The position numbers and the translations under genes are program-made. Positions 6,872 through 36,395 of a stretch of DNA of 64,000 bases are shown in pieces (the stretch's first letter is position 1; every line of letters begins with the position of its first letter). This DNA comes from Salinispora fenicalii (GTDB lineage Bacteria > Actinomycetota > Actinomycetes > Mycobacteriales > Micromonosporaceae). The stretch lies in assembly GCF_000514815.1 (NCBI RefSeq), contig NZ_KI911471.1, positions 497,062-561,061 on the forward strand. The letters run 5' to 3'. The notes under the pieces are model-generated. The model had not been told where the DNA came from and did no database searches. It saw only the letters and a list, made by a program, of their open reading frames with translations.

Positions 6872-9364
<2,493 letters not shown>

Positions 9365-9368
<4 letters not shown>

Positions 9369-9447
9369 GCGCGAGGAGTGAGCCGGGTTTGCGAGCCCCG
9401 CAGTCGCGAGTGGAGGGTACCGTGAGCGCGAAGATCGGAGTGGCGCC
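9365..9447. repeat. Short repeated spacer between cupin and KS-alpha
   Basis: The 79-base spacer contains GTGAGCGCGA at 9365-9374 and again at 9422-9431, each followed by a G/A-rich stretch. Between the two copies lie G/C-rich partly complementary blocks (GGGTTTGCGAGCCCC). The spacer breaks an otherwise overlapping operon and looks like an inserted REP-like element rather than a promoter. A related GTGAGTGAGCGACC string follows the P450 gene at 33004. Confidence 0.35.
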
Positions 9448-13355: not shown

Positions 13356-14756
13356 GTGAACGGGAACCCCTCGTCCCGCGATTCCAATGCGACCGATCCC
13401 GACTGGGTAGACGGTTTCCTGTTTACCGGCAAGCCGGCCGACGTCTGTCTCCGGCTCCCCGACCCGGTTGACCGGGGCACGCTGCACCGGCTGGTCACCG
13501 AGGCACAGACCCGCCTCAGCGCCGCCGGACTGCGCCGCGGGGGCGCAGTCGCGCTACGGCTGCCGCCGTCCCTGGCGTACGTGGTGAACCTGCTCGCCAC
13601 CTGGCGCAGCGGCGCGCAGGCCATCCTGCTGGACCACCGCCTCACTGACCACGAGGCCGACCGCGCGCTGCGGCGGCTTACCCCTCAGGTGGTCGTGGCG
13701 CCGGTCCGCACCGGTGGCGCCGCGCTACGCGTCTTCGTCGATGTCACCGAGGGGTTCACCCCGTACGGCGACCACCCGGCCACCAGCGACCACGCAGTGA
13801 TCCAACTCAGCTCCGGCTCCACCGGGCCCTCCAAAATAATTGGGCGGACCGCCGCCGACCTGATCGCTGAGGTGCGTCGCTACACCCAGCTCGACGGTGT
13901 GCCCCTACCCGGCGAACGACTCATCCTGCTTCCGTCCATGGTGCACGTGCTCGGCCTCGTCGGCGGCCTGCTCTACGGGCTGCACGCTGGCGTCGAACTG
14001 GTTCCACCGCAACGACTCAGCGGCGCGGCGGTGCTCGACGCGATCGGCGCCGCCGGCAGCCCGGCCACGGTCCTCGGCGTGCCATTCCACATCGGACTTC
14101 TGGCTGCCACCCAGCCCGACCGGCCCCTGCCCATGTTCCGCCGGATGATCACCGGCGGGGAACTTGTTTCCGCCGCCACGGCTCGCTCCTTCACGGACCG
14201 GTTCGGCGTACCGCTGGGCAACATGTATGGAATGACCGAGGTGGGGGTCATCGGCACCGACCTATATGGAGAACACCGGCCGAGGATTGTCCCCGCCCCC
14301 GGGGTCGACGTTCGTGAGGTCGCCGGTGAGCTGCGCGTGAGCTGCCCCGCCTCCCCGTACCTCGGCCACACAGATCCGTCCCGCTGGTCCGCCGGTTGGC
14401 TACACACCCGGGACGCGGGCACCGTGGACCCGGACAGCGGCCTGGTGACCATCCGCGGCCGGCTCGACTCCCAGGTCTCGGTCGGTGGGATGAAGGTCGA
14501 CCTCACCGAGGTGGAGAATACGGTCGCGGAGCTACCGGGGGTCGCCGCCGCAGTGGTGGTCTGGGATGACGGCATCACCGCGTACGTGCAAACGGTGGGC
14601 ACGCTCGCCGAGGAGACCCTGGACCAACAGCTCGCCGAGCGGCTGGCCGGCTACAAGCGTCCCCGCACCCTGCGGCTGCTCGATCAGCTGCCTCGCACGA
14701 CCACCGGCAAGCTGGTCCGATCGGTGGATATGCTGCGTACGGCAGGGACATCGTGA
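13356..14756 (+). CDS. AMP-dependent acyl/aryl ligase 1
   Basis: A 466-residue ANL-superfamily enzyme. The phosphate-binding loop reads VIQLSSGSTGPSK. The A5-type block is NMYGMTEVGVIG. The hinge region reads IRGRLDSQVSVGGMKVDLTE. The C-terminal catalytic lysine is in LPRTTTGKLV. It activates a carboxylate as acyl-AMP and passes it to CoA or to an ACP. It is the first gene of cluster B, close to two ACP genes and a phosphopantetheinyl transferase, so loading of a starter on one of those ACPs is a reasonable inference. GTG start chosen because the conserved fold begins soon after; the ribosome binding site is weak. Its 3' end overlaps the antisense PPTase gene by 73 bases. Confidence 0.85.
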   Translation: MNGNPSSRDSNATDPDWVDGFLFTGKPADVCLRLPDPVDRGTLHRLVTEAQTRLSAAGLRRGGAVALRLPPSLAYVVNLLATWRSGAQAILLDHRLTDHEADRALRRLTPQVVVAPVRTGGAALRVFVDVTEGFTPYGDHPATSDHAVIQLSSGSTGPSKIIGRTAADLIAEVRRYTQLDGVPLPGERLILLPSMVHVLGLVGGLLYGLHAGVELVPPQRLSGAAVLDAIGAAGSPATVLGVPFHIGLLAATQPDRPLPMFRRMITGGELVSAATARSFTDRFGVPLGNMYGMTEVGVIGTDLYGEHRPRIVPAPGVDVREVAGELRVSCPASPYLGHTDPSRWSAGWLHTRDAGTVDPDSGLVTIRGRLDSQVSVGGMKVDLTEVENTVAELPGVAAAVVVWDDGITAYVQTVGTLAEETLDQQLAERLAGYKRPRTLRLLDQLPRTTTGKLVRSVDMLRTAGTS

Positions 14757-15379
14757 TCGGGCGGCTCCGTCTCCCCGACGATGACCGTCTCAGCTTCGCC
14801 GCCAACCACCGCTACCGCCAGGAGCAGCGTCCCGGGGCAGTGGGGATGGCCGACCCAGACATCGGCGATAGCTGGCACCGGGCGCATCCGTCCGGGGCCG
14901 GGGACCGGCATCCGCCGGCCTGGACCTCCGGCGCGCAGCCCGAGGCCGAGCGCCTTGCCGACGGCCTCCTTCGCGGTCCACAACCGCAGGAAGTCCCGGC
15001 TCCGTCCGGCTTCGGGACGGGCCGCGAGCCAGGCCACTTCGGCCGGGTCGTACCAGCGGCGGGCCAAGCCCAGCGCGGGCAGCTGACGGCACTGCTCGAC
15101 GTCCACCCCCACCGGCCCGCCGGTCCGGACGGCGATCACCGTCACTCCGCCGCCACGGCTCACACTCGCCGGCACAGCGATCTGGCTCCGGCCGGTGTCC
15201 CTTGTGACCAGCGCAGCCGCGCCGGGCCGGTGGGTCACCACGAGGTCCGCCTCCGGACAGCCCAGCACTTTAGCGGCGGCCTGTCGCAGCAGCCGTTCGG
15301 CTGAGGCCGGCTGACCACCAGTACCCCGACCGATCCATACATACACGGTGTCCCGATTCGACACCAGTGACAGGTTCAC
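14684..15379 (-). CDS. 4'-phosphopantetheinyl transferase, Sfp type
   Basis: A 231-residue PPTase with the two signature motifs GVDVE (91-95) and FLRLWTAKEAVGKALGLGL, the latter containing W134-x2-K-E-A-x2-K. It attaches phosphopantetheine from CoA to carrier protein serines. The usual FSLSH block before GVDVE is degenerate here (VPASVSRGGG). The gene is antisense inside the plus-strand cluster. Its 3' end overlaps the ligase gene and its GTG start is only 15 bases from the ACP start, so the ACP ribosome binding site fills the whole gap. It most likely activates the two ACPs encoded next to it. Confidence 0.88.
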   Translation of the reverse strand: MNLSLVSNRDTVYVWIGRGTGGQPASAERLLRQAAAKVLGCPEADLVVTHRPGAAALVTRDTGRSQIAVPASVSRGGGVTVIAVRTGGPVGVDVEQCRQLPALGLARRWYDPAEVAWLAARPEAGRSRDFLRLWTAKEAVGKALGLGLRAGGPGRRMPVPGPGRMRPVPAIADVWVGHPHCPGTLLLAVAVVGGEAETVIVGETEPPDHDVPAVRSISTDRTSLPVVVRGS

Positions 15380-15394
15380 GGAGAGAGGTTAACC

Positions 15395-15661
15395 ATGAGA
15401 GCCGAGGTCCGCGCCTTCGTCATCGAGCAACTCACCGACATGAACTACGACGTGGAGGGGGTTGACGACGACGCCACTCTCGGGCCTGCCGGGGTGGACC
15501 TGGAGTCCCTGGCCCTCGCCGACCTGGCTGTCCGGGTCGAGGACCAGTACGGACTGACGTTCGCCGAGGAGGAGTCGGAGCAGCTGGCTCTGATGACGGT
15601 GGGTGAGTTCACCACGATGGTCGCCAACCGGGTTGCCGGGGCGCCGAGCGACCAATCCTGA
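15395..15661 (+). CDS. Stand-alone acyl carrier protein 1
   Basis: An 88-residue acidic four-helix ACP, the usual size. The phosphopantetheine site is GVDLESLALADLAVRVE, with Ser38 after DLE. GGAGAGAGG precedes the ATG at 15395. The DLESL motif, rather than DSL, is common in carrier proteins of type II polyene and aryl polyene systems and some other free-standing ACPs. It starts a tightly coupled gene string (TGATG overlap with the next gene) with KS-like genes, so it is the likely chain carrier. Confidence 0.9.
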   Translation: MRAEVRAFVIEQLTDMNYDVEGVDDDATLGPAGVDLESLALADLAVRVEDQYGLTFAEEESEQLALMTVGEFTTMVANRVAGAPSDQS

Positions 15662-15903
15662 TGGCCGGTCAGCCCGACCTGAGGCGAGTGGACCTGGTGG
15701 CCATGCTCGCCCAGCTCACCGACCGATCCACCAACCAGCCCGAGCGGATTGGCTCGATGGAGCTGGCCTGGCTCGTGCACCTGGTCGAGCAGCGCTATGA
15801 CCGGCAACTCGACCTCACCGACGACCAACTCGCCGAAATTCGCACCGTTGATGACGCACTGGTGGTCTTCGAGACCGCCCTGGCAGCTGCCGCCGATGGT
15901 TGA
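15661..15903 (+). CDS. Stand-alone acyl carrier protein 2 (atypical)
   Basis: An 80-residue protein with the length and helix pattern of an ACP. The prosthetic site reads RIGSMELAWLVHLVEQRY, with Ser32 in place and the preceding Asp of the DSL motif replaced by Gly. A short helix 1 and acidic C-terminal helices (DLTDDQLAEI, VFETALAAA) fit the fold. It begins on the last base of the ACP1 stop codon (TGATG). Two ACPs in series suggest separate starter and elongation carriers. The Gly could weaken modification, so whether it carries phosphopantetheine needs a test. Confidence 0.78.
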   Translation: MAGQPDLRRVDLVAMLAQLTDRSTNQPERIGSMELAWLVHLVEQRYDRQLDLTDDQLAEIRTVDDALVVFETALAAAADG

Positions 15904-16975
15904 GCCGGCCGACATTCTCCTCACTGGCGTCCACGCGACCAGTGCACTCGGTCGCGGTGCCGAGGCGCAGTTGGCCGGGGTACTTGCCGGAATCCCCGCG
16001 TTCCGACCGGTCCGCCGCTTCAACACCGGCCCCCGGCGGGTCAACGCGGCGGCCACCCTGTCGGATGCCGGCCCCCTCGCCGACGAACTGACCGAGGCAG
16101 TGACCGCGGCGTGTACGTCGGCGGGGCTCACCGCATCGCAGCGGGCTGAGGCGGCACTGCTGCTCGCGGTGCACGGCGGGAGGTCCGTACCGGCGTTGGG
16201 CGCTGGCCTCGCCGCGGCCACTGGCTTCCCAGCCGTGCGCACGTACACCACGGCGTGTGTCTCGGGCACCAACGCGATCGCTGACGCGGCGGTGTTGCTG
16301 CGGCGCGGCGAGGTCGATCGGGCCGTGGTCGCCGCCGGCTACCTGGTCGAGCCCGACCAGTACGCCCTCTTCGACGTCGGCCGGGCACTCGCCACCGATG
16401 CGCAGGTGCGTCCGTTTAGCGCCGGGCGTACCGGTCTGCTGCTCGGCGACGGAGTGGCGGCGGTGGTGTTGGAACGCGCCGACATCGCCCGGCAACCGAT
16501 CGCCGGCCTGCTCGGCTGGGGGCGGGCGGGTGACGCCTTCCACCCCTGCCAGCCCGAGCCGACCGGCCGCGGCCTGGCCCGGGCGATCAGCGCCGCACTG
16601 GTCCGCGCCGGTCGTGACCCAGCGGAGATCGGCTACGTCAACGCAAATGCCACGGGGGCCGGGCCAGGCGACGCGGCCGAGGCAGCGGCGTTGCGGACCG
16701 CACTGGGCCCGACGGCCCGGCGGGTGCCGGTGAGCTCCACCAAAGCTCTGCACGGGCACGCCCTGGAGGCGTCCGGCCTGTTGGAACTGGTGGTGACGGT
16801 GCTCGCGCTGCAGCGCGGCAAGCTGCCGGCGAACGCCGGTTGGCTCGGGCCGGACCCGGAGTGTCCGCTCGATGTCATCCGGGACGCGCCCCGACCGGCG
16901 GACACCGGCTACGCGCTCACCCTCAACGCCGCCTTCGGCGGCGCTAGTACCGCCCTGCTGCTGGGTGCGACGTGA
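15896..16975 (+). CDS. Ketosynthase-like protein with altered catalytic triad
   Basis: A 359-residue KS-fold protein, shorter than the usual 410. The nucleophile block TYTTACVSGTNAIAD keeps Cys121. The HGTGT block reads VNANATGAG, so the first catalytic His is Asn251. The second His is kept in STKALHGHALEASG (His288). The natural N-terminal strand is shortened. Such a Cys-Asn-His set might still transfer acyl groups but decarboxylate malonyl-ACP poorly, suggesting a priming or acyl-transfer role or a partner role to the complete KS at 19100. The start overlaps the ACP2 stop by eight bases. Confidence 0.82.
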   Translation: MVEPADILLTGVHATSALGRGAEAQLAGVLAGIPAFRPVRRFNTGPRRVNAAATLSDAGPLADELTEAVTAACTSAGLTASQRAEAALLLAVHGGRSVPALGAGLAAATGFPAVRTYTTACVSGTNAIADAAVLLRRGEVDRAVVAAGYLVEPDQYALFDVGRALATDAQVRPFSAGRTGLLLGDGVAAVVLERADIARQPIAGLLGWGRAGDAFHPCQPEPTGRGLARAISAALVRAGRDPAEIGYVNANATGAGPGDAAEAAALRTALGPTARRVPVSSTKALHGHALEASGLLELVVTVLALQRGKLPANAGWLGPDPECPLDVIRDAPRPADTGYALTLNAAFGGASTALLLGAT

Positions 16976-17490
16976 CCGGGCCGGGTGGACTGACCGTCCG
17001 CGCCCAGGCGGCCTGGCCGGAGCCGGGCGACGGCGCCGTGCCACCGCTACCAGGATTCGTCCACTCAGCCTTCAACCCGCTGGTGGTGGCGGTAGCAGAT
17101 CGGTGCCTGCGCCGGGCGTACCGAGCCGCGCCGACTGTCGACGGAGAGCGCACCGCGATCGTGCTGGTCAGCCCGACCGGCGATACGGCCAGCGCGGCGT
17201 ACGTGCGGGCCGCGGTGGCCGCTGACCGTCGGCCGGGACCGCTGTTCTTCTTCCAATCGGTGCCGAACAGCGTGGCCGGCCATCTGGCCGCCCGCTGGGG
17301 GCTGGGCGGGCCGGTGGTCTGCCTCGCGCCGACCGGCGACCCGCAGGCGGCCGGGTTCGCCGAGGCCGACCTGTTGCTGTACGACGGCGACGCCGACGCG
17401 GTGTTGCTGATCCTGATCGACACGGCACCGGACGACGGTGATGCGGAGTCAGCCGTCGCCGTGCTGCTGGGGGGAGGAGACCGAACATGA
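16972..17490 (+). CDS. Half-size ketosynthase-like protein (Ketoacyl-synt_2 type)
   Basis: A 172-residue protein resembling only the N-terminal half of a KS. RTAIVLVSPTGDTASAAYVR, then FFFQSVPNSVAGHLAARWGL and GGPVVCLAPTGDPQAAG line up with the dimer-interface and nucleophile region, ending with DADAVLLILID. The nucleophile position is not Cys in this alignment. Short KS-like proteins of this family accompany KS enzymes in aryl polyene and related type II gene sets. It probably pairs with one of the two larger KS proteins as a chain-length-factor analogue. Coupled by ATGA overlaps on both sides. Confidence 0.65.
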   Translation: MTGPGGLTVRAQAAWPEPGDGAVPPLPGFVHSAFNPLVVAVADRCLRRAYRAAPTVDGERTAIVLVSPTGDTASAAYVRAAVAADRRPGPLFFFQSVPNSVAGHLAARWGLGGPVVCLAPTGDPQAAGFAEADLLLYDGDADAVLLILIDTAPDDGDAESAVAVLLGGGDRT

Positions 17491-19103
17491 GACCCAGGGG
17501 AATCCGTGGGCTGCTCGCCGCCGATAGCCACATTGGTGCCGGGAATGTGCTCGAGCGGGTGCTTGCGCACGGCACCGACCCGGACACGCCCTGCCTGACG
17601 TTCGACACACCGCTGGACGGGCACCCCGCCGAGACACCGCTCACGCTGGGACAGCTCGACCGCCGGGTAGCGGCCCGGGCCGCCTGGCTGCACGAACGGG
17701 GAATCGGCCCCCGTGACCCGGTGGCGGTCTGGGCCACCGCGGTCGCGGACATGGTGTTGAGCTACCTTGCGCTGACCCGGCTGGGCGCGATCCCGGCGCT
17801 GATGAACGGACAGCTGCAGCCGACCATCGCCGCCGAGTACATCCGGCGGCTGCGTGGCGTCGCGGTGCTCGCCGATGAGACGCACCGCGCGTTGCTCGCC
17901 GAACACGACCTTGGGGTCCCGGTGCTCGGCACGCCGGCCGAGGCCGGCAGCGGTGACCCGGCCGCGGCGCCCGCTCACTACCGGCACCACCCGGACGACC
18001 CGATCGTGATCACCCACACGTCCGGCACCACCGGAGTGCCGAAGGCGGTGTTGCACTCGCACGCCAGCCTCTTCGTGGCGACCCGGCACCTGCTGAGCAT
18101 GCCGCAGGCGCAGGGCACCAGCCGGATCCTGAGTGCCTTGCCCGCCCCACACACCGCCACCGTGCTCATGGTCAACCAGGTGCTCGGCAACGGGGCGGAG
18201 ATGCTTCTCCTCTCCGAACAGGGTGGAGAGCGGGTTCTCGACGCCATCCAGCGCTGGCGCCCGGACGGGGTGTTCGGATTCTCGGTTACCTGGGCCGAGC
18301 TGGCCCGGTGCGATCTGGCCGGGTACGACCTGGACTCGGTTGGGCTGTGGTTCAACACCGGCGACTCGTCGCACGAGCCACACATCCGGCACCTGGTGGC
18401 GGTCGGCTCCCGGGACGTGATGACCCGCACGGGCGTCACCCGGGTGCCGGGCTCGGTATTCATCGATGGTCTCGGCTCCTCCGAGATGGGACACTCCATG
18501 TTCCACATCACCCACACCCGGGAGACCGACCGGTATGGACGGTGCATCGGCCGGCCGTACCGGTTCGCGAACGTCGCCGTGCTGGATGCGGCGGGTGAGC
18601 CGGTGCCCACGGGCGAGGCCGGCTGGCTGGGCATCGATTCGCTCTCGCTGTTCCGCGGCTACTGGAACGACTCGGTCACCACGCACCGCTACCGTCAGCG
18701 CGGCTGGTATCTGACCGGAGACCTGGTCTACGCCGACGCCGACGGCTGGTACTACCACCTGGACCGGGCGGTTGACTCGGTCGACTCAGTCGATGGGAAG
18801 CGCTTCTACACCGCGCTCTCCGAGGAGCGGATCCTCGCCGCCTGTCCCGATGTCACCGACTGCACGGTGGTCATGGCGCGCCAACCGGCCGGAGTCGTCA
18901 CCGACGTGCTGCTGGAACTGGCCGCCGACGCGGACGAGACCACGGACCGTACCGCGGTGGTTCGGGAGGCGTTGGGCGGGGAGGTCGGGGCGACCCTACG
19001 GCGGGTTGTTCCGGTCCGTTCCGCCGACATCCCCGTCACCGTTACCGGCAAGGTCCGCAAGGTGGCGTTGCGGGAACGCTACCTGAGCGGGGCGTCCCGA
19101 TGA
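17487..19103 (+). CDS. AMP-dependent acyl-CoA ligase 2
   Basis: A 538-residue ANL enzyme. VITHTSGTTGVPKAVLHSHA is the P-loop. GLGSSEMGHSMFH is the adenine-binding block. GWYLTGDLVYADADGWYYHL carries the ribose-binding Asp. TVTGKVRKVALRERYL has the C-terminal Lys. A short duplication, AVDSVDSVDGKRF, replaces the usual hinge sequence. GGGAGGAG precedes the ATG at 17487. Lying between KS genes, it probably activates the carboxylic starter or releases and recaptures product. The substrate cannot be read from sequence. Confidence 0.87.
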   Translation: MRPRGIRGLLAADSHIGAGNVLERVLAHGTDPDTPCLTFDTPLDGHPAETPLTLGQLDRRVAARAAWLHERGIGPRDPVAVWATAVADMVLSYLALTRLGAIPALMNGQLQPTIAAEYIRRLRGVAVLADETHRALLAEHDLGVPVLGTPAEAGSGDPAAAPAHYRHHPDDPIVITHTSGTTGVPKAVLHSHASLFVATRHLLSMPQAQGTSRILSALPAPHTATVLMVNQVLGNGAEMLLLSEQGGERVLDAIQRWRPDGVFGFSVTWAELARCDLAGYDLDSVGLWFNTGDSSHEPHIRHLVAVGSRDVMTRTGVTRVPGSVFIDGLGSSEMGHSMFHITHTRETDRYGRCIGRPYRFANVAVLDAAGEPVPTGEAGWLGIDSLSLFRGYWNDSVTTHRYRQRGWYLTGDLVYADADGWYYHLDRAVDSVDSVDGKRFYTALSEERILAACPDVTDCTVVMARQPAGVVTDVLLELAADADETTDRTAVVREALGGEVGATLRRVVPVRSADIPVTVTGKVRKVALRERYLSGASR

Positions 19104-20344
19104 CCGCGGTCATCACCGGGATGGGTTTGTACACCCCGGTGGGCCGGGGCGTCGAGGCCACCTTCGAGGCGTTGTGCACCGGCCGCTCCGGGCTGGCTCG
19201 CCCGCCGGCCGACCACCCCGCCGCCGAAGCCCTGGAGGTCGCCGGGGTGCTGCCGGCGATCGACCCGCGGTCGGTGTCGTCCGGTCCGGACTCCAAGGTG
19301 CTGGACCGGATCGTGCTGCTCGCCCTGCTCACCGCCGCGGATGCGTTGGCTGACGCCGGCATCGAGGTGGGGCGGGACGTTGCTCCGGAGCGGACGGCGG
19401 TCATCGTCGGCGGGGTCGGCGGGCTGGCCACCCTGGAGACGCAGGTGCTCACTCGGGCGGCCCGGGGTCGAGCGGGAGTCAGCCCGTACCTGCTCACCGG
19501 GGTGCTACCGAACATGCCGTCGGCCCGGATCGCGATCCGACACGGTATTCGGGGGTACAGCTCCTCGGTCGGCACCGCCTGCGCCTCCGGGGTTCAGGCG
19601 ATCGCCGACGCCGTTCGGCTGATTCGGGCCGGCGAGGCCGACGTGGTGCTCTGCGGGGCCAGCGAGGCGCCGCTCTTCCCGACCTTCGCGGACACCTTCG
19701 GCAACGCCCGAGCTCTCGCCCGCGGGTGGGCCGACCCGACGGAGGCCAGCCGACCGTTCGACCTTCGCCGCAACGGGTTCGTGTTGGCCGAAGGTGCGGC
19801 GCTGTTGGTGCTGGAGAGCGCCGCACACGCCGCTGCCCGGGGCGCTACCGGCTACGCGGAGATCGCCGGGTATGGCGTGACGACCGACGCATACCATCCG
19901 ACCGCACCCCGGCCGGACGGCACCGGCGCGGCGGCGACGATCCGACGGGCGCTCACCGGCCGCCGCGTGCCGGTGCCGGCCGCCGAAGTCGGCTACGTCA
20001 ACGCGCACGGCACCGGGACCAAGCTCGGCGACATCGCCGAGACCACGGCACTCACCGAGGTCTTCGGTGCGAACGGGGTACCGGTCAGCTCCACCAAGGC
20101 GCTCACCGGCCACCTGCTCGGGGCCTCCGGAGTGCTGGAGACGGCGGCGACCGCACTGGCACTCGGGCGGGGTCTGTTGCCGCCGACCTGGAACCTCGAC
20201 GACCCGGATCCGGAGTGCCCGGCTGATCACATCCGGAAGGAGCCCCGGGCAACCGAGACCGGCTATGCGCTGACCAACTCCTTCGGCTTCGGGGGGCAGA
20301 ACGTGAGCCTGCTGCTCGCGCGGGCCGCCCGGCCCCGGACTTGA
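19100..20344 (+). CDS. Complete beta-ketoacyl synthase of cluster B (FabF-like)
   Basis: A 414-residue KS with the full Cys-His-His triad: SSVGTACASGVQAIAD (Cys161), VNAHGTGTKLGD (His303) and STKALTGHLLGASG (His338). It is closer in pattern to FabF and type II polyene KS enzymes than to the KS-alpha at 9448. It should elongate chains on ACP1 or ACP2. No ketoreductase, dehydratase or enoyl reductase lies nearby, so chains would stay as beta-keto esters or use fatty-acid enzymes encoded elsewhere. It overlaps ligase 2 by four bases. A small hairpin (CGGGCG/CGCCCG, 20360-20374) lies in the 67-base gap that follows. Confidence 0.9.
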   Translation: MTAVITGMGLYTPVGRGVEATFEALCTGRSGLARPPADHPAAEALEVAGVLPAIDPRSVSSGPDSKVLDRIVLLALLTAADALADAGIEVGRDVAPERTAVIVGGVGGLATLETQVLTRAARGRAGVSPYLLTGVLPNMPSARIAIRHGIRGYSSSVGTACASGVQAIADAVRLIRAGEADVVLCGASEAPLFPTFADTFGNARALARGWADPTEASRPFDLRRNGFVLAEGAALLVLESAAHAAARGATGYAEIAGYGVTTDAYHPTAPRPDGTGAAATIRRALTGRRVPVPAAEVGYVNAHGTGTKLGDIAETTALTEVFGANGVPVSSTKALTGHLLGASGVLETAATALALGRGLLPPTWNLDDPDPECPADHIRKEPRATETGYALTNSFGFGGQNVSLLLARAARPRT

Positions 20345-20411: not shown

Positions 20412-21515
20412 ATGGACATCCGTGGAATAGACCACATTGAACTCTACGTAGACGATACCCGCCAGTCCGCCGCGTACTTCGGTAACGCGGTGGGGCTGCG
20501 GCCTCGTGGCCAGGGTGGCCCGGAGACCGGGTTGACCGGGCAGCGGTCGCTGCTGCTACGGCACGCCGACATCCGGTTGCTGCTCACCTCCGGGCTGACC
20601 GCCGATCATCCGGCGGCGGCCTATGTGCGGCAGCATGGCGATGGCATCGCCGTGGTCGCCCTGGCGGTTGACAACGCCGCCGAGGCGTACGCCGAACTGC
20701 TGGCCCGGGGCGCGGTCGGAGAACTGCCGCCGACCACCACCACCAGTGCGGACGCCGAGATCGTCATCGCCGAGGTGGCGGGCTTTGCCGATGTGCGGCA
20801 CCGCTTGGTCGAGCGCCGTCGAGGTGGGCGCGACTTCTTGCCGGGCCTGGCGGAATTGCCGCCGGTAGGGGAGGCCACCGACCACTTGCTCGCCGAGATC
20901 GACCACCTGGCGGTCTGCGTGCCGCCAGGGCAACTCGCCGAGACGGTTCGCGGCTACCGAGAGATCTTCGGTTTCAACGAGATCTTCCACGAGTACGTGG
21001 AGGTCGACGGCCAGGCGATGAACTCCACCGTGGTGCAGAGCCGGTCCGGGCGGGTGACCTTGGTGCTGCTCGAACCGGACACCAGCCGGCGGGCTGGGCA
21101 GATCGACGCGTTCCTTGCCCAGCACTCCGGCGCGGGCGTGCAGCACCTCGGGTTGCGGACCGACGACATCATCGCGGCGGTCGGTGCGTTGCGCCAGCGC
21201 GGGGTGCGATTCGCGCGTACCCCGGCGGCCTACTACGACGACCTGGAGACCCGGGTCGGCCGGATCGACGGGTCCGTGGACCAGTTGCGGGAATTCGGGG
21301 TGCTGGTTGACCGGGACCACGACGGCCAACTGCTGCAGATCTTCACGGAGTCGATGCACGTGCGTCGCACGCTCTTCCTGGAGCTGATCGAGCGGCGCGG
21401 GGCGCGGACCTTCGGCAGCGGCAACATCAAAGCACTCTATGAGGCCAAGGAACGGGAATTGGCGGTGTCGGCCTCCGTCGGAGGTCTAGCCGCTACCCAG
21501 GAGGTGACGGGATGA
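20412..21515 (+). CDS. hmaS: 4-hydroxymandelate synthase (HmaS-type 2-oxo acid dioxygenase)
   Basis: A 367-residue vicinal-oxygen-chelate dioxygenase related to 4-hydroxyphenylpyruvate dioxygenase. Iron ligands are His165 (AEIDHLAVCV), His245 (GAGVQHLGLRT) and Glu324 (LFLELIER). The C-terminal helix motif reads FGSGNIKALYEA. Ile339 stands where ring-migrating HPPD enzymes have Phe, and Ile or Val at this site is a known HmaS hallmark. It converts 4-hydroxyphenylpyruvate to 4-hydroxymandelate, step one of 4-hydroxyphenylglycine synthesis. The partner enzymes are encoded at 33973 and 35076. HPPD activity (homogentisate) is the alternative. Confidence 0.88.
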   Translation: MDIRGIDHIELYVDDTRQSAAYFGNAVGLRPRGQGGPETGLTGQRSLLLRHADIRLLLTSGLTADHPAAAYVRQHGDGIAVVALAVDNAAEAYAELLARGAVGELPPTTTTSADAEIVIAEVAGFADVRHRLVERRRGGRDFLPGLAELPPVGEATDHLLAEIDHLAVCVPPGQLAETVRGYREIFGFNEIFHEYVEVDGQAMNSTVVQSRSGRVTLVLLEPDTSRRAGQIDAFLAQHSGAGVQHLGLRTDDIIAAVGALRQRGVRFARTPAAYYDDLETRVGRIDGSVDQLREFGVLVDRDHDGQLLQIFTESMHVRRTLFLELIERRGARTFGSGNIKALYEAKERELAVSASVGGLAATQEVTG

Positions 21516-22441
21516 CCATTACTGATTTCGATCCACATCTGACCGATGAGGAGAGGTCGCTACTCCCCTCTGATGAGGACGTGGCGTTCTATGCCGAGCA
21601 CGGCTGGTATATGTCCAAGAAGTTGCTCACCGACGACGAGGTGGACACGCTCGCCGCGGCTACCGACCGCTACTACGCCGGTGAACGGCACCGCCGGCTA
21701 CCGGTGCAGCCCCCGAAGCTCGCGTACTGGGAACCAGCCAAGGGTGCGGTGCAGCGGCACAACGACTACGTCCACCATGAACACGACGGGCTCGGGGCGA
21801 TCCTGCGTAAGCCCCTGATCGGGGCGGTTGCCGCCCGGCTGGCACAGGCTGACGAGATCCGGATCTTCCAGTCCACACTGATTCTCAAGCCGCCGATCGA
21901 CGGGGAACCGTCGAATATCGTGCCCTGGCACTTCGACAAGCACTACTGGGCCTCCTCGTCGTCGGAGCGAATGCTGACCGCCTTTATTCCGTTCCACGAC
22001 TGCGATGAGGAGCTGGGCACCATTGTCATGGTCGACGGCTCGCACCAGTGGGCCGAAGTCGGTGCCGACGACACCGTGGTGCGGCACTTCGCCGACCGCG
22101 ACCGCGACCAACTCGACGACATGCTGGCCCGCAACGCCGGACACAACGGCGCCGAAATCCGGAAGATCCCGATGGTGATCCCGAAGGGGCACATGAGCTT
22201 CCACCACTGCCGGACCTACCACGGCAGCGGTGCGAACGTCAGCGGACGACCCCGCCAGGCGATCTCACTGCACCTGCAGGACGGCGACAACAGGTGGCGG
22301 GAATTCCCGCTCTCCACCGGCGAAAACGCCGCGTACAACCACGACGTGCTGGTTCGCCGTACCGACGACGGACGGCCGGACTACGCGGACCCCGAATACT
22401 GCCCGGTTATCTGGCGTCACCACGCCAAGCAGGGAGGCTGA
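21512..22441 (+). CDS. PhyH-family Fe(II)/2-oxoglutarate-type dioxygenase
   Basis: A 309-residue phytanoyl-CoA dioxygenase-like enzyme. The iron facial triad is visible as His140 and Asp142 in IVPWHFDKHYW and His237 in CRTYHGSGANVS. Arg246 or Arg248 is placed to bind 2-oxoglutarate. A conserved CDEELGTIVMVDGSHQW block supports the family. It should hydroxylate, desaturate or cyclise a small or carrier-bound substrate. The start overlaps the hmaS stop (ATGA), so it is co-translated with hydroxymandelate formation and may act on that or a later intermediate. Confidence 0.85.
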   Translation: MTITDFDPHLTDEERSLLPSDEDVAFYAEHGWYMSKKLLTDDEVDTLAAATDRYYAGERHRRLPVQPPKLAYWEPAKGAVQRHNDYVHHEHDGLGAILRKPLIGAVAARLAQADEIRIFQSTLILKPPIDGEPSNIVPWHFDKHYWASSSSERMLTAFIPFHDCDEELGTIVMVDGSHQWAEVGADDTVVRHFADRDRDQLDDMLARNAGHNGAEIRKIPMVIPKGHMSFHHCRTYHGSGANVSGRPRQAISLHLQDGDNRWREFPLSTGENAAYNHDVLVRRTDDGRPDYADPEYCPVIWRHHAKQGG

Positions 22442-22444
22442 GCT

Positions 22445-23257
22445 ATGTCACGGTACGACTGGGGAAAGACGCACCCCGGAATCGAGCGGCTGGAAAAGGC
22501 GGTGACCGACAGTCGGGACCGGGTGGTCAAGCACCCGCTCTACGCCAGCCTGGACAACCATGCGGCGCTGGTCACCTTCATGGAGCACCACGTCTTCGCG
22601 GTCTGGGACTTCATGTCCCTGCTCAAGTCGCTGCAGCGGCAGCTCACCTGTGTGACGGTCCCCTGGATCCCGACCGGGCCGACCGGCAGCCGTCGCCTGA
22701 TCAACGACATCGTGATGGTGGAGGAGAGCGACGAGCTGGGCGCGGGCTACCTCAGCCACTTCGAGCTCTACGTGCAGGGCATGACCGAGGCCGGCGCCGA
22801 CACCAAGCCGGTGGAGAAGTTGATCGAGTTGTTGCGCGCCGGCGGCTCGGTAACCGAGTCGTTGGCTGCGGCCGGGGCACCCGCCCCGTCCGCGGCGTTC
22901 GCGAGCACCACCTGGCGGATCATCGAAACCACCCCGGTGCACTGCCAGGCCGCGGCGTTCGCGTTCGGTCGGGAGGATCTGATCCCGGAGATGTTCACCC
23001 AGGTTGTCGCGGTCAACCACCAGTCGGGACGGCTGACCCAGTTCGTTGACTACCTGGAACGACACATCGAGGTCGATGGCGAGCAGCACACGCCCATGGC
23101 CATGCAGATGCTCGCCGACCTCTGCGGCGACGACGACACCAAGTGGCAGGAGTGCGCGGATACGGTCAACGCCGCGCTCGTCGCCCGCACCCAGTTGTGG
23201 GACGACATCCTCGCCGCGGTCAAGGGGGCTCCGGCAGCGGCAGCGGGGCGCGGGTGA
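22445..23257 (+). CDS. DUF3050 protein, heme-oxygenase-like fold, probable diiron enzyme
   Basis: A 270-residue all-helical protein of the DUF3050 family. The diagnostic block is [20 protein letters not shown] (from about residue 45), followed by VEESDELG and [10 protein letters not shown]. Glu47, Glu93/Glu94 and His105 or Glu107 are placed as in heme-oxygenase-like diiron oxidases (UndA, SznF, BesC type). Those enzymes perform decarboxylation, N-oxygenation or C-C cleavage. DUF3050 members have little functional description, so the reaction is open. The gene lies between the PhyH and E1-alpha genes, nearly overlapping both. Confidence 0.75.
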
Positions 23258-24225
23258 GTGGAGCCGACCCGATCCGGCTCTACCGTACGGTGCGGCTGAT
23301 CCGTCGGTTCGAGGAGCGGGCGATCGAACTCGTCCGCTCCGGCCACATCGTCGGCGGAATTCATCCGTACCTGGGCCAGGAGGGGATCGCTGCCGGGGTG
23401 TGTGCGGCGCTACGCCCCGACGACGTGGTCGCCGGCACCCATCGGGGGCACGGGCACGTGCTCGCGAAGGGTGCCGACCCGGCCCGGATGATGGCGGAGC
23501 TGTGTGGTCGGGTGACGGGCCTGAACCGAGGCCGGGGCGGGTCGATGCACGCCGCTGACTTCGCCGCCGGCGTCCTCGGCGCCAACGCCATCGTCGGTGC
23601 GGGCGGCGCGATCGTGACCGGCGCCGTCTGGGCTCGGCGTCGGCGCGGTGAGGACCTGGTGGGGGTCAGCTTCCTCGGCGACGGCGCGGTCAACGAGGGG
23701 ATGCTGCTGGAGGCGTTCAACCTGGCCGCCCTCTGGCGGGTGCCGGTGCTGTTCGTCTGCGAGAACAACGGCTACGCCACCACCATGCCGGTGGCCGACG
23801 CGGTGGCCGGCAGCATCTCGGCGCGAGCGGAGGCGTTCGGCATCCGGGCGAGTACGGTGGACGGTCAGGACCCGGCCGCCGTACACGCCAGCACCGCTGC
23901 CGCCCTCGCCCGGATGCGCGCCGACGGTGGTCCCGAGTTCCTGGAGGCCCGGACGTACCGGTTCGACGCCCACCACACCTTCGAACACGCGGTCCGCCTC
24001 GACTATCGCTCGCCGGCGGAGGTTGCTCAGGGCCGCTCCCGGGACCCGGTGCAGATCGCCGGTTCCCGGCTGCCGGCCGCCGAGCGGGCGGCCATTGACG
24101 CCGACGTGGAGGCGGTACTCGAGGCGGCGGTGGCGGATGCCCTCGCCGCCGCCGAGCCCGACCCCGCCACCGCACTGGAGTATCTGTATGCCAGCGGGCT
24201 GACCGCCCGTACCGGAGGTGGGTAG
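23254..24225 (+). CDS. Thiamine-dependent dehydrogenase E1 alpha subunit
   Basis: A 323-residue E1-alpha of the pyruvate/branched-chain 2-oxo acid dehydrogenase type. It shows [15 protein letters not shown] and the thiamine diphosphate motif running from [16 protein letters not shown] (142 onward) to ENN (170-172). It forms an alpha2beta2 enzyme with the next gene and decarboxylates a 2-oxo acid to an enzyme-bound acyl or hydroxyalkyl unit. No E2 or E3 gene is present, so the acyl acceptor may be an ACP, CoA, or a carbonyl as in acyloin formation. PglB/PglC of phenylglycine pathways and AviB1/AviB2-like proteins are precedents for E1 pairs in such clusters. GTG start overlaps the DUF3050 stop. 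Confidence 0.87.
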
Positions 24226-25191
24226 ATGCCGCGGTTGTCCTACCGCAAGGCGCTCAACCGGGCGCTCGCCGACGAGTTGGCCCGCGACGAGGAGGTGTTC
24301 CTGCTCGGGGAGGACATCCAAGTCGCCGCGTCGGCGGTCACCGCCGGTCTACTGAAGCGCTTCGGCCCCGAGCGGGTCCGCGACACCCCGCTCTCGGAGC
24401 AGGCGTTCACCAGCTTCGCCACCGGTGCGGCGCTGGTCGGCGCCCGGCCGGTGGTGGAGTTCCAGATCCCCGCACTGCTGTTTCTGGTCTTCGAACAGAT
24501 CGTCAATCACGCGCACAAGTTCCCGTTGATGACCGGCGGCCAGTGCGCGGTGCCGGTCACCTACCTGGTGCCGGGGTCCGGCTCGCGTACCGGGTGGGCG
24601 GGGCAGCACTCCGACCACCCGTACAGCCTCTTTGCGCATGCGGGGGTGACCACTGTGGTACCAGCCACCCCGGCGGACGCGTACGGCCTGCTGGTGTCGG
24701 CGATCCGCTGCGACGACCCGGTGGTGGTCTTCGCTCCGGCCGCGGCGACGGAGCTCCGCGCTGACGTCAGTGACCCGGTGCCGGTGCCGTTGGGCCGGGG
24801 GCGGGTGCATCGAAGCGGAGATGATGTGACGGTGGTCGCCGTCGGGCATCTGGTGCACGACGCGCTCGCCGTCGCCGACGAGCTGGCCGGTGAGGTTTCG
24901 GTGGAGGTATTCGACCCACGCACCCTGTATCCGTTCGACTGGGACGGGTTGCTCGGCTCGGTCGCCCGGACCGGGCGGTTGGTGGTGGTCGATGACTCAA
25001 ACCGTTCCTGTGGCATCGCCGGCGAGATCATTGCCACTGTGGTCGAACAGGTACGACTGCACGCGCCACCGCGTCGGGTGACCCGTCCGGACGGTGCGGT
25101 GTTGCCGTTCGCCCCGGCCCTGGATCGAGCCGTACAACCGGGTCGTGAGCTGCTGCGGCACGCCATTGCCCACGTCAGCAAGGATGGATGA
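24226..25191 (+). CDS. Thiamine-dependent dehydrogenase E1 beta subunit
   Basis: A 321-residue E1-beta transketolase-like protein. RDTPLSEQAFTSFATGAALV holds the Glu that activates thiamine. GSGSRTGWAGQHSDHPYSLF stands for the usual GGHHSQ block, and FDPRTLYPFDWDGLL precedes the C-terminal domain. Its ATG begins directly after the E1-alpha stop codon, so the subunits are made together. Role and open questions are those of the alpha subunit; a 4-hydroxybenzoylformate or 4-hydroxyphenylpyruvate substrate is suggested only by its neighbours. Confidence 0.87.
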   Translation: MPRLSYRKALNRALADELARDEEVFLLGEDIQVAASAVTAGLLKRFGPERVRDTPLSEQAFTSFATGAALVGARPVVEFQIPALLFLVFEQIVNHAHKFPLMTGGQCAVPVTYLVPGSGSRTGWAGQHSDHPYSLFAHAGVTTVVPATPADAYGLLVSAIRCDDPVVVFAPAAATELRADVSDPVPVPLGRGRVHRSGDDVTVVAVGHLVHDALAVADELAGEVSVEVFDPRTLYPFDWDGLLGSVARTGRLVVVDDSNRSCGIAGEIIATVVEQVRLHAPPRRVTRPDGAVLPFAPALDRAVQPGRELLRHAIAHVSKDG

Positions 25192-33038: not shown

Positions 33039-33980
33039 ATGAGCCTGCATCCGGAGGCTGAGGCGTACCGGGCGAGCCGCGCAGCGGCCGGTACCCCACC
33101 GCTATACACACAGACCCTCGCTGAGGCCCGCGCGGCCGACCTCGCCGCAATCCGGGCCGGCTCCGGCCCGGTCGAGCCGGTTCACGAGGTACGGGATACG
33201 CGCGTACCCGGACCGGCCGGTGATATTCCGGTCCGGGTGTATCGTCCCGCCGGGACCGGGCCGCTGCCGACACTGCTCTACTTCTTCGGCGGAGGGTGGA
33301 CGCTGGGCAGCATCGATACCGCGGACGGGGTTTGCCGGCGACTAGCCAATACGGTGCCCTGCCAGGTGATCACTGTCGGCTATCGGCTGGCTCCGGAGTA
33401 TCCGTTTCCGGCGGCCGTGCACGACTGTCACGCCGCCCTGCGCCACATCGCGGCACATCCAGTGGAGTTCGACGCGGACCCGGAGCGGCTCGCGGTGGGC
33501 GGGGACAGCGCGGGCGGCAACCTGGCCGCCGCGGTCACGCTGCTGGCCCAGAAGGAGGGTCCCCGGCTGGTCGCGCAGTTGTTGGTCTACCCGAACACCG
33601 ACCAGACGATCGAGCCGCCCGGCGGCGAGGATCCGCTGCTGTTCAACCGCCGCTCGGTCGCCTGGTACCGATCCCACTACCTGGCCGACCCGACCGACGC
33701 CCAACATCCCCTTGCGTCGCCGCTGCTCGCCGAGGACCTGACCGGTCTGCCGCCGGCGTTCGTGATCACCGCCGAGCACGATCCGCTCTGCGACGAGGGC
33801 GAACGGTACGCCGACCGGCTTCGCCTCGCCGGCGTGCAGACCGTCCTCACCCAGTACGCGGGCATGGTTCATGGCTTCTTCACCATGCCCGGCGTCTTCG
33901 AAGCGGGCCGGCAGGCTCAGGCAGCGGCCGCGACCTTCCTGCGTCGCCGCCTTCGGCGAACGGCGGCCGACAATGGCTGA
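33039..33980 (+). CDS. Alpha/beta hydrolase, hormone-sensitive-lipase family
   Basis: A 313-residue HSL-type esterase. The nucleophile elbow is AVGGDSAGGNLAAA. The catalytic Asp is in TAEHDPLCDEGERYADRL and the His in MVHGFFTMPG. The oxyanion motif normally reading HGGGW is FGGGW (TLLYFFGGGWTLGS), so its His is lost. It may release or hydrolyse a pathway ester, or act as a tailoring acyltransferase. It overlaps the Hmo gene by eight bases and follows the P450 by 31 bases that contain a GTGAGTGAGC-type repeat. Confidence 0.84.
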   Translation: MSLHPEAEAYRASRAAAGTPPLYTQTLAEARAADLAAIRAGSGPVEPVHEVRDTRVPGPAGDIPVRVYRPAGTGPLPTLLYFFGGGWTLGSIDTADGVCRRLANTVPCQVITVGYRLAPEYPFPAAVHDCHAALRHIAAHPVEFDADPERLAVGGDSAGGNLAAAVTLLAQKEGPRLVAQLLVYPNTDQTIEPPGGEDPLLFNRRSVAWYRSHYLADPTDAQHPLASPLLAEDLTGLPPAFVITAEHDPLCDEGERYADRLRLAGVQTVLTQYAGMVHGFFTMPGVFEAGRQAQAAAATFLRRRLRRTAADNG

Positions 33981-35079
33981 GCGGTTGTCGCTGCCCGGTG
34001 AGCCGCCGGTCGCCCTGGCCGACTTCGCCGACCTCGCCCGCGCGGTGCTACCGCCGGAGGTGTGGGATTTCGTGGCCGGTGGCAGCGGCGCCGAGACGAC
34101 GCTGGCCGCGAATCGACGGGCCCTGGACCGGACTGGCGTGCTGCCCCGCGTGCTGTGCGGTTCGCCAACGCCGCTGACCGACGCCCGGCTGCTCGGTGCC
34201 GGCCAGGCGCTGCCGGTGGCGGTCGCGCCGATGGCGTATCAGCGGCTGTTGCACCCCGACGGGGAGGTAGCCCTCGCCGCTGCGGCCGGCGCGGCGGACA
34301 TCCCGTATGTGGCCAGCACGCTCGGCAGCGTTCCGATCGAACAGGTCGCGCAAGCCGGCGGCGACGTGTGGTTCCAGCTCTACTGGCTGCGGGACCGGGG
34401 GCTCGTCGCCGACCTGCTGGACCGGGCCGAGGCGGCGGGTTGCACCGCGCTGATGCTCACGGTGGACGTGCCAATTCTCGGCCGTCGGCTGCGGGACGTA
34501 CGCAACTCGTTCGCCATTCCTGCGGATGTGGTCGCCGCGAACCTACCCACCGGCCGTGACAGTCTCGCCCACACGGTGACCCCGGGGGTGTCCGCGGTGG
34601 CCGCACACACCGGTGCGGTCTTCGCGCCGGCCGTGAGCTGGGACGACCTGGAGTGGCTGCGGGAGCGGACCACGGTCCCGCTGATCGTCAAGGGGGTGCT
34701 CGATCCGCGCGATGCCGGCCGCGCGGTGGCGGCCGGAGCGGACGCGGTAGTGGTTTCCAACCACGGGGGACGCCAGCTTGACGGCGCACCGGCCACCGTG
34801 GACGCGTTGCCCGCGATCGTTGAGGCGGTGGGCGACCGGTGCGAGGTGCTGCTGGACAGCGGTGTCCAGAGCGGAGTGGACGTGTTGCGGGCCCTGGCCC
34901 TCGGCGCGCACGGTGTCCTGGTGGGTCGCCCGCTGCTCTGGGCGCTGGCGGCCGGTGGCCGGGCCGGTGCTGAGCTGGCCCTGTCGCTGCTGGCTGACGA
35001 GTTCCGGGATGCGCTCACGTTGGCGGGGTGTGCCGACGTGGCGGCGGCACGGCAACTGCGGACGACGGCGGTGCAGTGA
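33973..35079 (+). CDS. hmo: 4-hydroxymandelate oxidase (FMN alpha-hydroxy acid oxidase)
   Basis: A 368-residue FMN-dependent (S)-2-hydroxy-acid oxidase. VAVAPMAYQRLLHPDGE and DVWFQLYWLRDRG bind FMN. TVDVPILGRRLRDVRNSF holds the substrate-binding Arg. SNHGGRQLDGAPATVDALP holds the catalytic His and Arg. In 4-hydroxyphenylglycine pathways Hmo oxidises 4-hydroxymandelate to 4-hydroxybenzoylformate. HmaS upstream and the aminotransferase immediately downstream complete that route, which is the main reason for this name. ATG start inside the esterase 3' end. Confidence 0.88.
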   Translation: MAERLSLPGEPPVALADFADLARAVLPPEVWDFVAGGSGAETTLAANRRALDRTGVLPRVLCGSPTPLTDARLLGAGQALPVAVAPMAYQRLLHPDGEVALAAAAGAADIPYVASTLGSVPIEQVAQAGGDVWFQLYWLRDRGLVADLLDRAEAAGCTALMLTVDVPILGRRLRDVRNSFAIPADVVAANLPTGRDSLAHTVTPGVSAVAAHTGAVFAPAVSWDDLEWLRERTTVPLIVKGVLDPRDAGRAVAAGADAVVVSNHGGRQLDGAPATVDALPAIVEAVGDRCEVLLDSGVQSGVDVLRALALGAHGVLVGRPLLWALAAGGRAGAELALSLLADEFRDALTLAGCADVAAARQLRTTAVQ

Positions 35080-36395
35080 TCGTGGACTTACACCTGGCCG
35101 ACCTGCACCCGGCGCTCGGGGATCCGGCCCTGAACTCGATGAACTTCCTCAACGAGGTGGCGCAGGACTACCCGGACGCGGTGTCGCTCGCCGCTGGCCG
35201 GCCGTACGAGGAGTTCTTTGAGTTCTCGGCGCTGCACCGGTATCTGGACATCTTTCGGCAGCACCTGGTCGATGACCTCGGGCAGGACTCGAGGCAGGTG
35301 CATCGCACCCTGTTCCAGTACGGGCGGACCAAGGGGATCGTGCACCACCTAGTCGCCCGGAACCTCGCTGTGGACGAGGGGATGACGGTCGATCCGGAGG
35401 CGATCGTGGTGACCGTCGGGTGTCAGGAGGCGATGTTCCTGGTGCTGCGGGCGTTGCGTGCCGATCCCCGGGACGTGCTGCTTGCGGCGGCGCCGACCTA
35501 TGTGGGGCTCACCGGCGCAGCGCGGCTGCTGGACTTTCCGGTCCGCCCGGTGGCGACGACGGACTCCGGGGTGGACCTGGCGGACCTGCGCGATCAGGTG
35601 CATCGGGCCCGGGCCGAGGGGCTGCGCCCGCGCGCCTGCTATCTGATGCCGGACTTCGCCAATCCGTCGGGTACCAGCATCTCGTTGTCCGACCGGCGGG
35701 CGCTGCTGGACCTGGCCACCGAGGAGGAGCTGCTGCTGATCGAGGACAACCCGTACGGACTGTTTCCGGCCACGGAGGGTCGGCGGCTACCCACGTTGAA
35801 GGCCTTAGACACCAATCGTCGGGTGGTCTACCTGGGATCATTTGCGAAAACGGTGCTACCCGGCGCACGGGTTGGCTACGTGGTGGCCGACCAGTCGGTG
35901 GCGGATGTCGATGGCGGGGGAGGGCTCCTCGCCGATCAGCTGGCCAAGGTCAAGAGCATGGTCTCGGTGAACACCTCACCGTTGGCCCAGGCGGTGGTTG
36001 GTGGGGTGCTACTCGCCCACGATTGCAGCCTGTTGGCGGCCACGGTACGACAGCGCACCGTTTACGCCGATAATCTGCGCCATCTGGTGCACGGCTTGGG
36101 CCGCCGGTTCCCGGCCGGTTCGTCGGTGCGTTGGACGGTTCCCGCCGGCGGGTTCTTCGTGGTGGTCACCGTGCCGTTTGCCGTGGACGACGCGTTGCTG
36201 CACCGCTCTGCCCGCGAGTACGGGGTGCTCTGGACCCCGATGGCGCACTTCTACGGCGACGGTGTGCCGGTGCACGCGCTGCGGTTGTCGGTCAGTGCCG
36301 TCACCCGGGATGACATCGACCGTGGGCTGGACCGGCTCGCGGCCCTCGTCGCGGGCGAGGTGACGCGGCAGGGAGATGGGATCAAGACGCACTGA
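35076..36395 (+). CDS. hpgT: 4-hydroxyphenylglycine-type aminotransferase
   Basis: A 439-residue fold-type I PLP aminotransferase of the MocR/HpgT-like class without a DNA-binding domain. PDFANPSGTSISL, IEDNPYGLF (Asp224, pyridine nitrogen) and LGSFAKTVLPGARVGYVV (Lys258, PLP Schiff base) are visible. HpgT enzymes convert 4-hydroxybenzoylformate to L-4-hydroxyphenylglycine with tyrosine as donor, regenerating 4-hydroxyphenylpyruvate for HmaS. GTG at 35076 overlaps the Hmo stop (GTGA). It is the last gene of cluster B. Confidence 0.87.
   Translation: MIVDLHLADLHPALGDPALNSMNFLNEVAQDYPDAVSLAAGRPYEEFFEFSALHRYLDIFRQHLVDDLGQDSRQVHRTLFQYGRTKGIVHHLVARNLAVDEGMTVDPEAIVVTVGCQEAMFLVLRALRADPRDVLLAAAPTYVGLTGAARLLDFPVRPVATTDSGVDLADLRDQVHRARAEGLRPRACYLMPDFANPSGTSISLSDRRALLDLATEEELLLIEDNPYGLFPATEGRRLPTLKALDTNRRVVYLGSFAKTVLPGARVGYVVADQSVADVDGGGGLLADQLAKVKSMVSVNTSPLAQAVVGGVLLAHDCSLLAATVRQRTVYADNLRHLVHGLGRRFPAGSSVRWTVPAGGFFVVVTVPFAVDDALLHRSAREYGVLWTPMAHFYGDGVPVHALRLSVSAVTRDDIDRGLDRLAALVAGEVTRQGDGIKTH

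Follow-up and report, generated by a model that had tools for sequence, protein, structure and literature searches.

A predicted aryl-primed type II polyketide synthase operon of Salinispora fenicalii with a half-size ketosynthase partner and a ketosynthase that lacks a catalytic histidine

We analyzed a 64 kb stretch of the Salinispora fenicalii genome (contig NZ_KI911471.1, positions 497,062 to 561,061), called the window below, to which all statements on the presence or absence of genes refer unless stated otherwise. An initial annotation of this DNA had pointed to three ketosynthase (KS) genes coupled to genes for two acyl carrier proteins (ACPs) and a ligase. The operon reaches beyond this trio on both sides, upstream to the ligase gene at 13356 and downstream across 20412-25191. 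The last two genes listed are likely, though uncertain, members:

13356..14756, + strand: AMP-dependent ligase (PF00501/PF13193), counterpart of AvaA1/CmaA1, the acyl-ACP ligase for the aryl starter
14684..15379, - strand: phosphopantetheinyl transferase (PF01648, 7e-16)
15395..15661, + strand: ACP1, counterpart of the malonyl carrier AvaA2/CmaA2 (weak PF00550 match of 0.0012, below cut-off)
15661..15903, + strand: ACP2, counterpart of the starter carrier AvaA3/CmaA3 (no Pfam match)
15896..16975, + strand: KS1, 359 amino acids, Cys121-Asn251-His288, predicted counterpart of AvaA4/CmaA4
16972..17490, + strand: half-size KS (hKS), 172 amino acids, predicted counterpart of the chain length factor (CLF) AvaA5/CmaA5
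17487..19103, + strand: LIG, adenylate-forming enzyme at the place of the diazotase AvaA6/CmaA6
19100..20344, + strand: KS2, FabF-like KS, 414 amino acids, Cys-His-His
20412..21515, + strand: member of the 4-hydroxyphenylpyruvate dioxygenase family, probably a 4-hydroxymandelate synthase (best solved match 2r5v)
21512..22441, + strand: PhyH-type Fe(II)/2-oxoglutarate oxygenase (PF05721)
22445..23257, + strand: DUF3050 protein, haem-oxygenase-like (PF11251, 3e-96)
23254..24225, + strand: E1-alpha, subunit of a thiamine diphosphate dehydrogenase
24226..25191, + strand: E1-beta subunit
33949..35079, + strand: flavin mononucleotide-dependent oxidase, 4-hydroxymandelate oxidase-like (best solved match 5zzp)
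35028..36395, + strand: class I/II aminotransferase (PF00155)

The overlaps of 4 to 8 bases that had been described hold for all junctions but one: ACP2 and KS1 share 8 bases, KS1/hKS, hKS/LIG and LIG/KS2 share 4 each, and ACP1 and ACP2 overlap by a single base. The gene order is conserved in loci of Salinispora, Micromonospora and Kribbella, and also in Dactylosporangium, except that there the ligase gene has shifted behind E1-beta; the arrangement is therefore beyond chance. The phosphopantetheinyl transferase accompanies many, not all, of the related loci, and the DUF3050 gene is kept in most copies of the operon and absent from some relatives. The operon was not found in searches of the open-access literature and may still have been published.

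The closest described systems are those for avenalumate (ava) and p-coumarate (cma), of which the published operon comprises A1 to A6. The accessible part of the cma paper lists A1 as an acyl-ACP ligase, A2 and A3 as the ACPs for extender and starter, A4 as the KS, A5 as the CLF and A6 as the diazotase, and it ties Trp38 and His41 of CmaA3 to the function of starter ACP. The window contains a ligase, two ACPs, a KS, a half-size KS and an A6-like enzyme in the same order, and ACP2 carries the corresponding pair, Trp37 and His40. Among the ACP2 sequences aligned, Ser32 is invariant and the Trp/His pair is present in 13 of the 14, that of L144 differing; in ACP1 the aligned serine lies within DLESLALADL. 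A further link is provided by locus L147, whose AvaA6 and AvaA7 matches exceed the curated cut-offs (1060 bits against 975 and 506 bits against 400), and which encodes an A1-like ligase, an ACP1-like protein, a Cys-His-His KS and a half-size KS, all related to those of the window, as well as a DeoC-family aldolase. The ligase at 13356 is 39% identical to the L147 copy and occupies the same position in ava-like loci. Given the gene order, the homology, the Trp/His pair of ACP2 and the composition of L147, KS1 and hKS are on sequence grounds the KS and CLF of the ava type, the lengths and triads of the published AvaA4/A5 and CmaA4/A5 standing outside this comparison. The anatomy of the operon and its assignment to this family are secure.

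There are also differences. KS1 has a Cys-Asn-His triad, whereas the KSs of the ava-like loci L147 and L152 are Cys-His-His (the comparison covers these loci, not the published AvaA4/CmaA4), and the window has KS2 as an extra KS. It also adds the hydroxymandelate-type gene, the PhyH and DUF3050 genes and the E1 pair. LIG reaches 480 bits with the AvaA6 model, below its cut-off of 975, and its nearest solved structures are 8ztz, a putative AMP-binding enzyme, followed by the nitrite-using Tri17 (8tf7, 9bq0). When the copies from L147 and a further locus, L004, were used as queries at an E value of 1e-3, no homologues of AvaH, AvaI, AvaA7, AvaB, the ketoreductase (KR), UbiD, HadB or nitrosuccinate lyase were recovered from the 64 kb; only the A6-like LIG was matched, with 43% identity to AvaA6 of L147. 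Thus the window lacks homologues of the 3-amino-4-hydroxybenzoate genes, of the KR and of AvaB, and contains enzymes of the hydroxymandelate type and others instead. This agrees with the initial annotation, which had noted the lack of a KR. A KR is a feature of the ava type only, not of cma. For cma, the published account considers that the dehydratase (DH) of fatty-acid synthase helps and that in a cmaG mutant its KR probably does so too, and a missing KR or DH would not by itself imply that reduction is missing.

Two other loci related to ava were observed. L004 (G000:C13:188000-207900), in the same genome, is an ava-related cluster with a second KS/half-size KS pair, and has as neighbours a FabG1-like KR, a BagN/FevL-like UbiD, a HadB-like protein and nitrosuccinate-lyase-like and AvaA6-like proteins, the last two below their cut-offs. 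In L152 (7953-9317) a single open frame of 455 amino acids spans a starter-type ACP and a KS, and this is possibly a natural ACP-KS fusion.

The hKS had been described as the N-terminal half of a KS without a nucleophile, and this description holds. Its Pfam matches are confined to the N-terminal KS domain (PF13723, 4e-8; PF00109, 0.0035, below its cut-off), and an alignment with the FabF C163A chain places a Gly at the nucleophile position, which we take to be the last A of ATAA, with a Cys five residues before that Gly. The possibility that hKS is a frameshifted fragment of a full KS had been kept in mind, and this can now be ruled out. One genome scan yielded relatives in 61 loci (48-95% identity), of which five Salinispora loci were nearest (90-95%), and whole-genome searches added further loci. 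In total 121 loci contained an hKS relative (some represent one genome counted twice), and 112 of the 114 complete ones, with start codons chosen by script, encode 151-260 amino acids. Both outliers can be explained. The 399 amino acids of L141 result from a wrong start, as the interval there between the end of KS1 (9786) and the beginning of the ligase (10283) leaves space for about 165 residues. In L007 (10001-12127; Salinispora pacifica CNR114) the hKS frame continues into the ligase to give 709 amino acids, possibly by gene fusion or by a sequence error. Comparison with L006 and L011 gave ratios of nonsynonymous to synonymous substitution of 0.23 and 0.37 for hKS (0.12-0.37 overall for hKS, KS1 and KS2), from which it follows that hKS is under selection, and its fold is predicted with confidence (mean predicted local distance difference test, pLDDT, of 86). 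The hKS is a functional partner protein rather than debris, and a half-size partner is normal in this widespread actinomycete operon type. A profile search recovered hKS from 6 of 296 genomes of the class at 1e-15, its own genome included, which indicates a distribution centred on certain families.

The best solved match of hKS is ApeC (6qsp_B, 22% identity), followed by 7f28_A, a half-size chain named KS N-domain protein. According to the aryl polyene paper, ApeC is a CLF that has a single thiolase fold and is roughly half as large as its KS, and hKS likewise consists of a single thiolase-fold domain that corresponds to the N-terminal half of a KS and is encoded by a gene overlapping that of a KS. 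The parallel extends to the remainder of the aryl polyene system, for which the accessible text mentions, apart from the ApeO-ApeC pair, a second, FabB-like KS (ApeR), two ACPs and an aryl-ACP ligase. Aryl polyene clusters differ in having a KR and a DH, and the identity of hKS to ApeC is low; the comparison covers fold and gene content rather than the ApeO triad. The trio, which had been called unusual, is as such ordinary for systems of this kind.

Cys121, His288 and the Asn251 that occupies the HGTGT position, as listed in the initial annotation, were all found in the alignment, and the predicted model of KS1 is of high confidence (pLDDT 94). Identical sequences counted once, 93 distinct KS1 proteins were collected, the one of the window included: 68 with Cys-Asn-His, 14 with Cys-His-Gln, 10 with Cys-His-His and an odd one (L036), with Leu at the place of the Cys, which was left out as doubtful since it derives from a 6.2 kb contig piece. 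One of the two catalytic histidines is therefore lost in 82 of the 92 counted. Among the named loci, Salinispora, Micromonospora and Kribbella supply the cases of Cys-Asn-His, and Dactylosporangium those of Cys-His-Gln. The SSTK motif, Lys included, shows no variation. Considering the fact that Cys-Asn-His retains the second histidine and Cys-His-Gln the first, at least two separate losses must have occurred; two is a floor because the changed residues differ. A careful tree (46 rows, with the columns around both histidines removed) requires three changes. The Cys-Asn-His proteins formed a single clade in a quick tree (57 rows; Shimodaira-Hasegawa-like approximate likelihood ratio test, 86), an arrangement that did not hold in the careful one. 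The Cys-His-His proteins are mostly basal on the trees, with L142 as an exception.

A retained Cys in combination with a lost HGTGT histidine, as in KS1, marks the KS0 domains of trans-acyltransferase (trans-AT) polyketide synthases (PKSs). The accessible text on hangtaimycin predicts that KS3, which has Cys-Asn-His in place of Cys-His-His, does not elongate and is able to transacylate; its authors report KS0 as a non-elongating transacylase, and KS0 domains elsewhere are marked by the same loss. The difference is that these KS0s sit as domains within multimodular type I enzymes, whereas KS1 is a stand-alone protein with a half-size partner.

The full triad attributed to KS2 was seen in its Cys-His-His motifs, which are also present in 9 of the 9 KS2 relatives looked at. 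To what extent KS2 accompanies the KS1 types could be counted for the 57 of the 93 KS1 proteins that lie in loci of at least 9 kb (33 of the 82 that lost a histidine lie in smaller pieces and were left out). KS2 was present within the locus in 35 of 35 cases for Cys-Asn-His, in 13 of 14 for Cys-His-Gln and in 2 of 8 for Cys-His-His. In the remaining Cys-His-Gln case (G017) a KS2 of 60% identity is located about 15 kb away, and near the Cys-His-His locus L142 (genome G159) one of 64% is found at about 11 kb, which brings the latter class to 3 of 8; the search for KS2 in genomes G240, G192, G216, G190 and G689 gave nothing above 44%. All 49 examined loci with a KS1 that lost a histidine thus have a KS2 near. 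In the loci examined the losses occur only with KS2 near, and KS2 is not always accompanied by a loss: L138 and L141 combine KS2 with a Cys-His-His KS1, and L142 does so too. KS2 hence does not force the loss, and the simple rule that KS1 loses its histidine when KS2 is present is ruled out by these three loci. L138 and L141 are a third cluster type, with A1, two ACPs, the Cys-His-His KS, a half-size KS, a ligase, KS2 and an AvaB-like protein; their stretches contain no hydroxymandelate genes, and their genomes also carry the operon type of the window.

The enzyme at 20412 matched best to 2r5v (PCZA361.1; 278.9 bits), which we take to be a hydroxymandelate synthase. A second family member that scores higher is encoded elsewhere in the genome, and this paralog, together with the oxidase-like gene in the window, favours the view that the 20412 protein is probably a 4-hydroxymandelate synthase. 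The oxidase at 33949 has the 4-hydroxymandelate oxidase 5zzp as best solved match (379 bits), and the aminotransferase at 35028 may plausibly be a 4-hydroxyphenylglycine transaminase. Downstream of the operon in five relatives, both genes were present in L129-L132 and neither in L133. The gene set fits the route to 4-hydroxyphenylglyoxylate and 4-hydroxyphenylglycine, but not tightly.

Based on the above, we propose that the operon encodes an aryl-primed type II PKS of the ava/cma lineage that has been rewired, in which KS1 and hKS form a non-elongating, acyl-transferring pair and KS2 elongates; to this proposal we assign an even chance. To go by the published homologues, the A1-like ligase would load an aromatic acid on ACP2, ACP1 would carry malonyl, and KS1 and hKS would form a heterodimer. 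The aromatic acid may originate from a tyrosine-derived hydroxymandelate/hydroxyphenylglyoxylate branch, in replacement of 3-amino-4-hydroxybenzoate. Cys121 of KS1 would take the aryl group from ACP2, a poor decarboxylation of malonyl making the enzyme non-elongating, and KS2 would perform the decarboxylative condensation with the malonyl on ACP1. Any reduction would use fatty-acid-synthase enzymes. The FabB H298Q variant is reportedly deficient in malonyl decarboxylation, and it is this defect, together with the properties of the hangtaimycin KS0, that favours a non-elongating KS1 with condensation by KS2. The original suggestion of a priming KS, an inactive scaffold and an extender KS gains evidence, as a hypothesis of an acyl-transferring KS, a silent partner and an extender KS; the partner, however, is no strange scaffold, as it matches the CLF partners of the ava/cma and aryl polyene systems.

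Several observations weigh against this proposal. Cys-His-Asn triads of the FabH type do decarboxylate, so that a Cys-His-Gln KS1 need not be dead. L142 has both KS2 and the hydroxymandelate-type gene and yet retains Cys-His-His, and L138 and L141 likewise pair KS2 with an intact triad. A counterpart of ACP2 was not detected in L147, nor was an acceptor found for the transferred group. On the precursor side, the plain dioxygenase 7yvv (278.3 bits, other structures lower) trails 2r5v by less than 1 bit as match for the 20412 enzyme. Furthermore, among 15 operon stretches of 16-20 kb, counted without their wider surroundings (L134-L137, L139, L140, L142-L146, L156 and L159-L161), both the oxidase and the aminotransferase were present in four (L139, L140, L146 and L156), the aminotransferase only in two, the oxidase only in one and neither in eight. 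Finally, the KS1-hKS complex and all activities are predictions from sequence.

It is rather unlikely, yet deserving of attention, that the KS1-hKS pair still elongates with an altered but tolerated triad, KS2 being an ApeR-like accessory that only raises throughput. For the aryl polyene system it is reported that the KS-CLF pair alone gives the full product in vitro and that ApeR raises throughput, and the invariant SSTK motif and the intact triad of L142 point the same way. An enzyme that bears the elongation is, however, expected to keep both histidines, as the nine KS2 relatives and the ava-like KS do, and the frequent loss of one in KS1 counts against it, as does the FabB H298Q defect. 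The retained Cys and lost histidine would also suit a pair that acts as an acyltransferase and moves the aryl group to a non-carbon or non-malonyl acceptor, such as the amine of a 4-hydroxyphenylglycine produced by these same genes, or that forms a bond to a thiamine-bound unit supplied by the E1 pair. E1-alpha is indeed found in 33 of 35 Cys-Asn-His and 13 of 14 Cys-His-Gln loci, and some other genera have genes for a hydroxymandelate-oxidase-like enzyme and an aminotransferase close to the operon; considering that any acceptor would be conjectural and that the role of KS2 is left unexplained, we regard this as improbable.

Our first lead, which came from NCBIfam names, was a KS-cyclization factor system as in cispentacin (AmcF-AmcG) or coronafacic acid (Cfa3-Cfa4) biosynthesis, where, according to the accessible descriptions, a KS with a small non-catalytic partner, an ACP and an adenylating enzyme make a five-membered ring in a single condensation. 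AmcG is the best curated name for hKS (E 1.5e-6), and the names for KS1 include AmcF; when the profile of hKS was compared with two proteins above the AmcG cut-off, the probability was 95 (E 3e-8). The scores, however, are far below the curated cut-offs (AmcG 28 bits against 80, AmcF 146 against 325), and on a tree with long branches the KSs beside two AmcG-family genes group with KS2, FabF and KS-alpha, apart from KS1. The best curated name for LIG is AvaA6, and among the 25 matches listed there is no AmcH model. We rejected this lead on the cut-offs and the tree position, and consider it highly improbable. In the same genome, L151 (G000:C37:55947-60052) shows an AmcG-family match of 36.6 bits inside an open frame of 415 codons, with KS genes and a FabG-like gene as neighbours.

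Directly upstream of the operon another PKS is encoded:

8961-11963: aromatic type II PKS (cupin, KS-alpha, CLF, ABM monooxygenase), with KS-alpha/CLF at 9448-11963

A Salinispora study reports one type II PKS in all its strains, the presumed source of the black spore pigment (PMC12838356), and the 8961-11963 PKS would by inference be this enzyme. The operon adjoins presumed spore-pigment genes in both Micromonospora and Salinispora. An ACP-like frame is present near 8363, upstream of KS-alpha, and a Micromonospora cluster has been reported with its ACP likewise upstream of KS-alpha. Considering this frame, and the Kribbella and Dactylosporangium stretches that have the operon without KS-alpha/CLF, the idea that the neighbouring KS-alpha/CLF needs ACP1 or ACP2 was discarded.

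To return to the proposed non-elongating KS1-hKS pair, we put forward, with somewhat less assurance than the mechanism itself, that a stand-alone KS with a half-size CLF partner turned independently into a non-elongating type II KS0 at least twice, with a different histidine affected each time, once elongation had passed to a second KS, and in an operon that is fed by hydroxymandelate/hydroxyphenylglyoxylate chemistry. Within the reach of the present searches, the repeated loss of a histidine and the exchange of precursor genes are the new points. In trans-AT assembly lines non-elongating KSs occur as domains, whereas here a discrete, small KS pair is concerned that has apparently switched at least twice, and for which the Cys-His-His relatives in sister clusters provide controls, so that the division between acyl transfer and decarboxylation would be directly testable. 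The operon indicates an uncharacterised product family, spread over many Micromonospora genomes and those of Salinispora, Kribbella and Dactylosporangium.

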